Assembly (NCBI GenBank): GCA_013816505.1
Contig: JACDEG010000003.1
Location: 1 to 41,064, forward strand
DNA from: Pyrinomonadaceae bacterium
GTDB lineage: Bacteria > Acidobacteriota > Blastocatellia > Pyrinomonadales > Pyrinomonadaceae
Reading direction: 5' to 3'
Length of the DNA stretch: 41,064 bases
Shown: one piece after another, positions 1,433 to 35,673 of the stretch
Layout: the number at the start of each line of letters is the position of its first letter
How positions within the stretch are numbered: the stretch's first letter is position 1
Position numbers and translations under genes: made by a program
The notes under the pieces: model-generated
Told to the model about the DNA's origin: nothing
Seen by the model: the letters and a program-made list of their open reading frames with translations, nothing else
Database searches by the model: none

Positions 1433-1592
1433 GTGACAGGTGACAGGTGACAAGTGACAGGAGGGTTTAGATGCTGTGCCGCACGCGGCGAGTTCTTTGA
1501 GCCAGCAGCCTAAGCGAAAAGTTACCGGCTTCGCTCGGAGAAACTCACCTGCCTTAACTCTTTCTTGTCACCTGTCACCTGTTACCTGTCAC
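1433..1592. repeat. Inverted-repeat element, four GTGACAG-type heptamers per arm (arms 1433-1460 and 1565-1592)
   Basis: Left arm GTGACAG GTGACAG GTGACAA GTGACAG; right arm on opposite strand GTGACAG GTAACAG GTGACAG GTGACAA; about 25/28 paired by eye. Confidence 0.85.
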
Positions 1593-3589: not shown

Positions 3590-3700
3590 AATTAGTCAGG
3601 CAAAAGTGAAAGCCGGTCACGACAGTGAATTTGTTTGTTTTTGAATCGAGACATAGAAAAATGGTTGAGCGGCGAGCGAGTGGCGCAGGCAAATATTTTT

Positions 3701-3793
3701 AACACAGAGACACAGAGAGGAATTACAGAGGGCACAGAGCAAGATTAATCGCTTTACTCTGTGCTCTCTGTGTGACCTCTGTGCCTCTGTGTT
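3701..3793. repeat. Inverted-repeat element with four CACAGAG-like units per arm
   Basis: + strand AACACAGAGACACAGAGAGGAATTACAGAGGGCACAGAG … ACTCTGTGCTCTCTGTGTGACCTCTGTGCCTCTGTGTT; arms complementary over about 38 nt. Confidence 0.85.
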
Positions 3794-3873
3794 ATGTCGG
3801 TGTCCCATTCTCATATGCTCTGAGTTAGAACTGAAAGCCGTTTGATCGGGTGATTAAGATTTCGCACTTCGCG

Positions 3874-32533: not shown

Positions 32534-32723
32534 AGTCTGGAGTCTGGAGTCTGGAGTCTGAAGTCAAATCACCGAAAGTCTATTCTCCCTGATGTGCGTC
32601 ATCTTTCCGCCCCTCGCGTGTATAGAAGCAACAATCTCTCGACAACGACCTTCAACCTCGCCACCTCAGCACTCACACATCAGGTTATCCCGACTCCCGA
32701 CTTCAGACTCCAGACTCCAAACT
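32534..32723. repeat. Inverted-repeat element, AGTCTGG-type heptamers (arms 32534-32561 and 32696-32723)
   Basis: Left arm AGTCTGG x3 + AGTCTGA; right arm on opposite strand AGTTTGG AGTCTGG AGTCTGA AGTCGGG (a fifth AGTCGGG follows). Confidence 0.85.
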
Positions 32724-33704: not shown

Positions 33705-35033
33705 TTAAATCCGCTGCCCTGATGAGTTGCTGCTTTGATGAACCGCCACCGTCGTGGGCCGCAGCAGGTCGTTGTATAAATTGCTGATGTCGACGACCAG
33801 CCGTTCCTTCGAATAGTTATTTCTCACGAACACGTGCCCGCGTTCGCCCAACTCGGCCCGCAGATTTTCGTCGCCGATGATTCGCCGGAGCGCGCGGCTG
33901 AAAGCTTGCGCATCGCCGGCGGGCACTCTCAGGCCGCGCTCACAGATTAGATAACCGTCGTCCTGTGCCGGCTCCGTCGAAGTCGGATGCCGTGCGACAG
34001 GGCCGAGCAGATCGACCACGCCGCCAACCGCCATCGCCACGACGGGGCGCGCGTTCGCCATCGCTTCGATCAGCGTCAGTGGCGTCCCTTCATTGCGCGA
34101 AGTCAGTGCCACGACATCGAGCGCGGCGTAGAAATTCTCCGGGTCGTCGCGCAAGCCGGTGAACATAACATCTTCGTCGACGCCGAGCACGCGCGCACGC
34201 GCTTCGAGAGAGGGCCGCAAGTGTCCGTCGCCGACGATCAGAAAGCGCACGCGCGACGATGATGAGACGGTTGTCGCCGCGCGTTCCATCCGGCCCGACT
34301 CCTTTTTGTAGAGCGCGACGGCCTCAAGGAACAACTCGTGGTTTTTAATCTCCGTCAATCGCCCGACGACGCCGATCAGCACCGAGTCGTCCGTGATGCC
34401 AAAGGCTTCGCGCGCCTCCGCCCTCCGCTCCGACCACTTATCGAACGCGCCGAGATCGAGGCCGAGCGGGATCACCGCGAACTGCGAGTCGCGCCCGACG
34501 CCGAACTCTGTGTGTATCTCGCGGTACTGCTGCGGGCTGATGACGATGATGCGGTCGGTCGCGAGGCGCGCCAGAATCTTTTCGATGGTGAGGAAGAAAC
34601 GAGTCTTCGCCGCACCGTAGTAACTGTGAAAGACGTGCCCGTGATACGTGTGCACGAATCGGCAGCGGCGCGGACGAGCGAATAACATGCCCGGCGTCAG
34701 CCAGCGATAACAGAGTCCCGCGACGCGCCCGACCGTCCCCGCCTTCGCCGTGTGCGTGTGCACGATGTCCGGGCGCTCGCGCCGCAGCAGGCGATAGAGT
34801 TTCCAAACCGTTACCGCGTCACGCCACGAAATCTCGCGGCTCATCTCCGGGAGGACCTGCGGCACGACGCCCAGCGCGCGGACGAAGTAGCTCATGTCAT
34901 CCTCGCCCGGTGGCACGACGCCCGTCACCAGCACCGATTCATACCCGGCGCGCGGTAGCTCCGCCGTCAGCCACGCGACGTGGCGCGCGGGGCCGCCGAC
35001 GTTCAGCCGCGCAATGATGCGGACTACCTTCAT
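33705..35033 (-). CDS. Glycosyltransferase family 4
   Basis: VVRIIARLNVGGPARHVAWL, DIVHTHTAKAGTVGRVAG, SRNEGTPLTLIEAMANARPVVAMAVGGVVDLL. Confidence 0.94.
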   Translation of the reverse strand: MKVVRIIARLNVGGPARHVAWLTAELPRAGYESVLVTGVVPPGEDDMSYFVRALGVVPQVLPEMSREISWRDAVTVWKLYRLLRRERPDIVHTHTAKAGTVGRVAGLCYRWLTPGMLFARPRRCRFVHTYHGHVFHSYYGAAKTRFFLTIEKILARLATDRIIVISPQQYREIHTEFGVGRDSQFAVIPLGLDLGAFDKWSERRAEAREAFGITDDSVLIGVVGRLTEIKNHELFLEAVALYKKESGRMERAATTVSSSSRVRFLIVGDGHLRPSLEARARVLGVDEDVMFTGLRDDPENFYAALDVVALTSRNEGTPLTLIEAMANARPVVAMAVGGVVDLLGPVARHPTSTEPAQDDGYLICERGLRVPAGDAQAFSRALRRIIGDENLRAELGERGHVFVRNNYSKERLVVDISNLYNDLLRPTTVAVHQSSNSSGQRI

Positions 35034-35038
35034 AAAGC

Positions 35039-35131
35039 GGGGGTCGGGGGTCAGGAGCCGGGGGCCGGGATAATATGAAGAACTAACTGCAATCTTCTCA
35101 ACTGACCCCTGGCCCCCGACCCCCGACCCCT
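35039..35131. repeat. Inverted-repeat element, GGGGGTC-type heptamers, four per arm (arms 35039-35066 and 35104-35131)
   Basis: Left GGGGGTC GGGGGTC AGGAGCC GGGGGCC; right on opposite strand AGGGGTC GGGGGTC GGGGGCC AGGGGTC. Confidence 0.85.
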
Positions 35132-35133
35132 AT

Positions 35134-35673
35134 TTAATCTTCCATCGTGAAGATCGTCGCGGGATCGTCCTCGTGCCTGATCTCGTCCACTTCTTCGCGG
35201 CGGCCTTCGCCCATGAAGAGACGGTTCGGGCAGTTGATAACGATGCCGGGAACGTGCCCGATGTTGCGGTAAGCGTGCGCGACGCCCTTCGGGACGATCA
35301 CCGATTTCGCGCTGTCCTCGCCGACGAAAAGCGTCATCACGTGCCTGTACGTTTCAGAGTCGGGGCGGTTGTCCCACATCCGCATCTTGAAGTTCGACGG
35401 CCCGATGAAGCAGAAGAGGTCGGCTTGATCGACGTGCTCGTGCGGCCCGCGTTGGACACCCGGCATCGACGCCGAGACGTAGTTCATCCGCGGGTGAAAC
35501 TCCGCGTCCAGTTCGTCGTGGCGGAACAATTCGGCCAGCCATCCGCGCTCGTCGACGAACTTGCGCAAATCGCGCACGACGACGCCCTGAATCTTGCCGC
35601 GCTTGAACGGCGATGCGGACGACGCCGCAGAGGAAAGCGACGCGGTTGACGAAGGCTTAGGCTTTGGCTGCAT
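35134..35673 (-). CDS. dTDP-4-dehydrorhamnose 3,5-epimerase-like (RmlC-type cupin) protein
   Basis: IQGVVVRDLRKFVDERGWLAELFRHDEL, RGPHEHVDQADLFCFIGPSNFKMRMWDNR, VPKGVAHAYRNIG. Confidence 0.85.
   Translation of the reverse strand: MQPKPKPSSTASLSSAASSASPFKRGKIQGVVVRDLRKFVDERGWLAELFRHDELDAEFHPRMNYVSASMPGVQRGPHEHVDQADLFCFIGPSNFKMRMWDNRPDSETYRHVMTLFVGEDSAKSVIVPKGVAHAYRNIGHVPGIVINCPNRLFMGEGRREEVDEIRHEDDPATIFTMED

Follow-up and report, generated by a model that had tools for sequence, protein, structure and literature searches.

A heptamer-array hairpin beside an RmlC-like gene of a Pyrinomonadaceae bacterium as a probable copy of a REPIN-like miniature element

The 41,064-nt stretch of Pyrinomonadaceae contig JACDEG010000003.1 analysed here (the window) carries, in the gap between the genes of an RmlC-like epimerase and a family 4 glycosyltransferase (GT4), a hairpin with arms built from tandem heptamers. 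This hairpin is not locus-specific: intergenic inverted repeats with a period of 7 nt form a common genomic class in the host genome and its relatives. The window hairpin is probably one copy of a REPIN-like class of miniature non-coding mobile elements, lodged beside a stop codon, and as such neither a conserved translational regulator nor a quadruplex. Mobility of its own heptamer family is suggested by analogy with families of related genomes.

The window hairpin and its class

The hairpin comprises 92 bases and fills the 100-nt gap between the two genes (Table 1). Direct reading of the sequence bears out the initial annotation, which had described inverted heptamer arms occupying nearly the whole gap, and the distances that it gave, 2 nt from the right arm to the RmlC-like stop and 5 nt from the left arm to the GT4 start, hold as well (TAA at 35134–35136, ATG at 35031–35033 on the reverse strand). 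The arms follow the unit GGRGYCR and are 88% complementary across 25 nt in an inverted-repeat search. The predicted fold of the sense (minus) strand has an energy of −64.5 kcal/mol, as compared to −40.4 ± 4.0 kcal/mol for shuffled sequences (z −6.0), and none of 200 shuffles folded as well. The lone heptamer GGGGGTC is not enriched in the window, with 5 occurrences seen against 3.8 expected; the improbable part of the hairpin is the array and its inverted pairing, not the lone heptamer. At their feet the arms start with GGGG after unrelated flanks, where a GTAG or CGTC tag is absent, and the sense strand directly 3' of the 3' arm reads GCTTTATG, with no intrinsic-terminator U-run. A comparison of the window with Rfam 15 gave 0 matches above the gathering score.

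Table 1. Features of the window hairpin, its neighbouring genes and further heptamer hairpins of the window
Feature	Coordinates	Strand	Description
Left arm	35039..35069	+	GGGGGTC GGGGGTC AGGAGCC GGGGGCC + GGG; from sequence and repeat search
Loop	35070..35102		~33–41 nt by pairing; inner small stem GAAGA / TCTTC
Right arm	35103..35130	-	minus-strand reading GGGGTCG GGGGTCG GGGGCCA GGGGTCA; plus-strand letters TGACCCC TGGCCCC CGACCCC CGACCCC; adjoins RmlC-like stop; holds canonical G4 motif
RmlC-like dTDP-sugar epimerase	35134..35673	-	PF00908; upstream of hairpin
Family 4 glycosyltransferase (GT4)	33705..35033	-	PF13439/PF13692; downstream of hairpin
GGAGTCT-dialect hairpin	32541..32723		loop 133 nt; intergenic gap two genes downstream of window hairpin
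GTGACAG-dialect hairpin	1433..1592		loop 106 nt; loop 84% identical, inverted, to copy at L206:4138

A BLAST search of the window gap against the host genome found many further places that match the arms only; the loop does not recur. A degenerate three-heptamer pattern had 32 matches in the host genome and its reversed control 3. Arms of the GGGGTC family number 28 in this genome, with a fixed outer phase (GGGG first, as in the left arm of the window) and unrelated flanks. In another genome of the phylum (G100), 91 matches to the reversed control pattern, CYGGGGRCTGGGGRCTGGGG, apparently represent a further G-rich dialect of period 7.

The 7-nt period is a general property of such repeats. 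Among lags 4–20, lags 7 and 14 (twice 7) stand out for exact tandem runs in the host genome and in G002, and the lag-7 enrichment is weak in G019. The arms of intergenic inverted repeats show an identity of 0.41–0.57 at lag 7 versus about 0.25 at other lags, and inverted repeats are 10–60 times denser in intergenic than in coding sequence. A pooled sample of six genomes and 40 loci (the genomes being draft MAGs with genes called by a simple in-house script) contained 886 gaps of 30 nt or longer, and 104 of these hold a heptamer inverted repeat, versus 1 after shuffling. The density of such repeats varies between 0 in 200 kb (G021) and 13.7 per 100 kb (G010), and each genome holds several unrelated heptamer families, or "dialects". 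An inverted repeat of a non-heptamer kind, TAACACAGAGACACAGAG / CTCTGTGCCTCTGTGTTA, lies at 3700–3794 of the window, with CACAGAG-like motifs in other loci.

The members of the class measure about 60–190 nt and consist of inverted heptamer-array arms flanking a loop, a hairpin form that is retained across every dialect. The first arm is C-poor on either strand, with more G than C in 83 elements and more C than G in 12 (p 3e-14). Same-dialect arms in G010 follow one another in forward-then-reverse order only and are nearly always paired, and no solo arm far from a partner was found in the 305 kb of this genome examined. The elements are placed close behind genes: the median distance is 5 nt from the upstream stop codon to the element and 19 nt from the element to the next start, and 72 of 87 co-directional cases lie nearer the stop, as opposed to 15 nearer the start (p 3e-10). 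This position is not merely an avoidance of ribosome-binding sites, since the bias persists where at least 80 nt of flank is free (17 cases versus 2).

Of 396 genomes sampled across the phylum, 13 contain the GGGGTC dialect; they belong to several families, and the host genome is the only carrier among those sampled in its own family. The GTCAGTT dialect occurs in 25 of the 396. This patchy recurrence of dialects in distant families could reflect convergence as well as transfer.

Turnover at orthologous sites

The order of the RmlC-like and GT4 genes is conserved in many genera of the family. Where the gap between them measures 70–150 nt, it holds a heptamer hairpin in most genera, and the heptamer is nearly always a different one (among them GAGCAGT, AGTTTTC, GTCAGTT, GGAGTCA, ATTTCGG, GATTGCG and GTAGTCA); in element-free orthologs the gap is mostly about 3 to 40 nt. 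A strict detector scored 13 of the 25 GT4-upstream gaps measuring 30 nt or more as filled; with gaps of all lengths the count is 13 of 35, versus 17 of 164 among the remaining co-directional gaps in these loci (p 3e-4). In the host genome, a paralogous rmlA–rmlC pair of about 80% DNA identity (L143:356-2762) carries a single GGAGTCT-type arm in the matching place, interrupted by an adjoining IS66-like transposase gene (family named by eye). Genes were also seen within the RmlC–GT4 gap of some loci: a HicB/HicA-like toxin–antitoxin pair, recognized by eye, in the 445-nt gap of L123, and an aminotransferase-like gene in L083 and L112. In L129, long TAGTCTAGCGAGTC arrays (14 nt, 2 × 7) stand on one side of the gap and AGACTCG-type units on the other.

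The turnover can be followed most closely in the genomes of two congeneric species, G040 and G041, whose loci (L082 and L100) are very close in the GT4 tree and whose coding DNA is about 95% identical. Over a 9-kb stretch, the first gap contains an element directly behind a stop codon in G040 and is empty in G041; the RmlC–GT4 gap is filled in both, with different dialects; and in a third gap the units are of the GGTGAAT type in one species, of the CGTGAAT type in its sister. The first gap of an outgroup, L077, holds yet another element, so that the empty gap of G041 may represent a loss. TGAT flanks both sides at one clean filled/empty site, a single case that may be due to chance.

Genome-wide, matches to a 19-mer of the GTCAGTT dialect number 145 in G040 versus 11 in G041, a 13-fold difference; conversely, the CGTGAAT dialect has 60 matches in G041 versus 31 in G040. 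Alignment of 13 orthologous sites of G040 elements to G041 revealed 4 with a shared element and 9 without. At the 4 shared sites the arrays differ by 7, 7, 14 and 21 nt, and at least 3 of the 9 other sites hold a hairpin of another dialect in G041. Some G040 copies are nested in the loop of an older hairpin; in L267, L271, L285 and L287 of this genome, younger GTCAGTT elements apparently sit in loops of older GATGAAC-dialect hairpins. The G040 GTCAGTT family has a common loop core, TTCAAGAC..TCTTTAGCAACTCG.GTGA...CCACATG, and includes 19 pairs of similar loops versus 0 in each of ten shuffles. This shared core indicates that a defined unit is copied as the family spreads.

Alternative explanations and mode of spread

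The initial annotation had noted that the GT4 gene has no room for a normal Shine–Dalgarno (SD) sequence outside the stem, and had suggested that the hairpin reduces or couples translation. The structural part of this proposal stands, as the stem is predicted to be very stable, its arm comes within a few nucleotides of the start codon, and no SD-like sequence lies outside it. The absence of an SD at GT4 is nevertheless ordinary, because most called starts of the host genome are without an SD-like 4-mer (present at 97 of 273, or 36%, versus 10% of control positions). The heptamer also differs or is missing in orthologs and in the sister species, and the RNA stem bears no sign of selection, G-U wobbles (40) not being in excess over A-C mismatches (33) on the sense strand of co-directional elements. 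A locus-specific hairpin acting on GT4 translation is thus quite improbable; an effect on GT4 expression is possible, and would be incidental given the turnover of the elements. The annotation's further idea, that the G-runs could form a quadruplex on the plus strand, has to be corrected as to the strand: the plus-strand string needs a 9-nt loop. The canonical motif (four G-runs of at least 3, with loops of at most 7 nt), GGGGTCGGGGGTCGGGGGCCAGGGG, is predicted from sequence on the minus (sense) strand only. A functional quadruplex there would have a parallel in Xanthomonas and Nostoc, whose G-rich heptameric repeats have been studied as quadruplex formers (PMC4692102), but many of the heptamers found at the same site in other genera are A/T-rich or mixed and unable to form one, and a long hairpin would be a competing fold for either single strand. 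This explanation is hardly credible for the window element.

Another possibility is that the hairpins are selected 3'-end elements, i.e. bidirectional terminators, Rho barriers or mRNA stabilisers, with a free sequence and possibly spread by copying, and retained for their function. The position next to stop codons and the hairpin shape common to all dialects agree with such a role, as does the lower frequency of elements in gaps between divergent genes (6 of 109 versus 98 of 777, p 0.04). However, a T-rich stretch (5 T or more among the 8 nt 3' of the stem) follows only 10 of 88 co-directional copies, the equality of G-U and A-C pairs gives no hint of a maintained RNA stem, and the sister species differ in presence at 9 of 13 sites. 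Loss of Rho was considered as a cause of the abundant hairpins and rejected, as Rho was found in the relatives searched; with Rho throughout, such terminators are not obviously needed. A function at 3' ends consequently appears rather doubtful as the main reason for the elements. It is also conceivable that short intergenic quasi-palindromes grow in place and do not transpose, with replication slippage and template switching adding to them and evening out their sequence 7 nt at a time. Such a process would produce the differences of exactly 7, 14 and 21 nt seen between orthologous arrays; the arms within one element match slightly better than arms of different copies (0.97 versus 0.88–0.97), and the loops of the G010 dialects are largely unrelated. 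Conversely, near-identical arms of 20–30 nt at many sites of one genome, the 13-fold expansion of a single dialect in one of the species and the conserved loop core all need copying between sites. Slippage accounts for the 7-nt steps, not for the spread of one dialect, and growth in place is an unlikely explanation of the class as a whole.

According to the favoured explanation, a mobile miniature element, the window copy would have arrived in the RmlC–GT4 gap by the process seen in the sister species, and would persist there as a gap just behind a stop codon tolerates insertion. In the sister species, copies are gained or lost, swapped for other dialects and nested, and arrays grow or shrink by whole 7-nt units. 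In the transcript, the hairpin of the window copy would be chiefly incidental, although it may slightly influence mRNA ends or how strongly the second gene is expressed. The copies of the GGGGTC dialect have hardly any loop sequence in common, which is unexpected of a recently copied unit. Transposition as a unit together with the loop was accordingly rejected as a rule for every dialect; it fits GTCAGTT in G040 and some GTGACAG pairs, and hardly the GGGGTC or G010 dialects.

The REP-associated tyrosine transposases (RAYTs, Y1 HUH) were considered as mobilisers. The host genome has 10 Y1_Tnp matches, with no heptamer hairpin of the window's kind in the flanks examined, and a Y1_Tnp search of G010, G040 and G041 gave no match (in draft genomes, where absence is not absolute). 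Membership in the RAYT/REP system was rejected on these observations, and the mobilising enzyme is probably not a RAYT, since Y1 HUH genes are undetected in the genomes with the densest or the most recently expanded elements. A plasmid search for long perfect arrays returned no match with the low-complexity filter on, and is hence uninformative. More speculatively, the elements may constitute a class of mobile hairpins independent of RAYTs, whose 7-nt unit, inverted layout and C-poor first arm would be fixed and whose heptamer sequence would be free, with dialects that coexist, burst and replace each other at stop-proximal sites.

Relation to known repeats and implications

Cyanobacteria contain short heptamer repeats (STRR) and small mobile dispersed repeats in their intergenic regions, and the elements described here resemble the descriptions of these, as short intergenic heptamer or mobile repeats. 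A study of cyanobacterial repeats (Elhai 2008) is cited in PMC2884548. The heptameric G-rich repeats of Xanthomonas (GGGNATC) and Nostoc (GGGGA[C/T]T) are intergenic, with one heptamer type per genome studied, and have been interpreted as quadruplexes (Rehm 2015, PMC4692102). Those of Xanthomonas often form convergent inverted pairs with the G-rich arm first, in a gene context mostly kept between two species (PMC4692102). Tandem intergenic units of 7 nt are common to these repeats and the present elements, as is the inverted pairing in the case of Xanthomonas, whereas the window unit is GGRGYCR, many unrelated heptamers of which only some are G-rich occur per genome, and sister species show turnover. 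The TAACTGA repeats of Beggiatoaceae, Cyanobacteria and Bacteroidetes comprise 169 sets, one of them inverted, upstream of start codons (MacGregor 2015, PMC4679880). They too are intergenic and patchy with a 7-nt unit, and the reverse complement of that unit, TCAGTTA, closely resembles GTCAGTT; nearly all of them are direct, while the elements here are inverted.

REPINs are REP doublets that form hairpins (Bertels and Rainey 2011, PMC3116915). Like them, the present elements have conserved ends in an inverted doublet that encloses a variable spacer; they are dispersed outside genes, form several families per genome and differ in abundance between lineages. The ends differ from REPIN ends in being heptamer arrays, which shift in 7-nt steps, rather than GTAG-tagged REPs, and in G040, G041 and G010 there is no detected RAYT to accompany them. 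Among the GTAG and CGTC REPs described in PMC3733652, the latter likewise are small palindromic repeats without a dedicated transposase, but with stems of 8–9 bp, a CGTC tag and no heptamer arrays. No description of such elements in Acidobacteria was found in the limited set of literature searched.

Heptameric intergenic repeats of cyanobacteria, Xanthomonas and Beggiatoaceae have thus been noted before, with no agreement as to their origin. The G040/G041 pair catches the elements mid-turnover: one dialect has recently expanded, sites are filled in one species and empty in the other, elements replace one another and arrays change in 7-nt steps. The mechanism thereby becomes open to test by comparison. 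The results also show that an intergenic hairpin at a single locus is no sure sign of conserved regulation. More generally, they suggest that REPIN-like elements can proliferate where a RAYT is undetected, and a RAYT-independent class, if true, would imply an enzyme or a template-driven process that counts seven nucleotides across distant bacterial groups.
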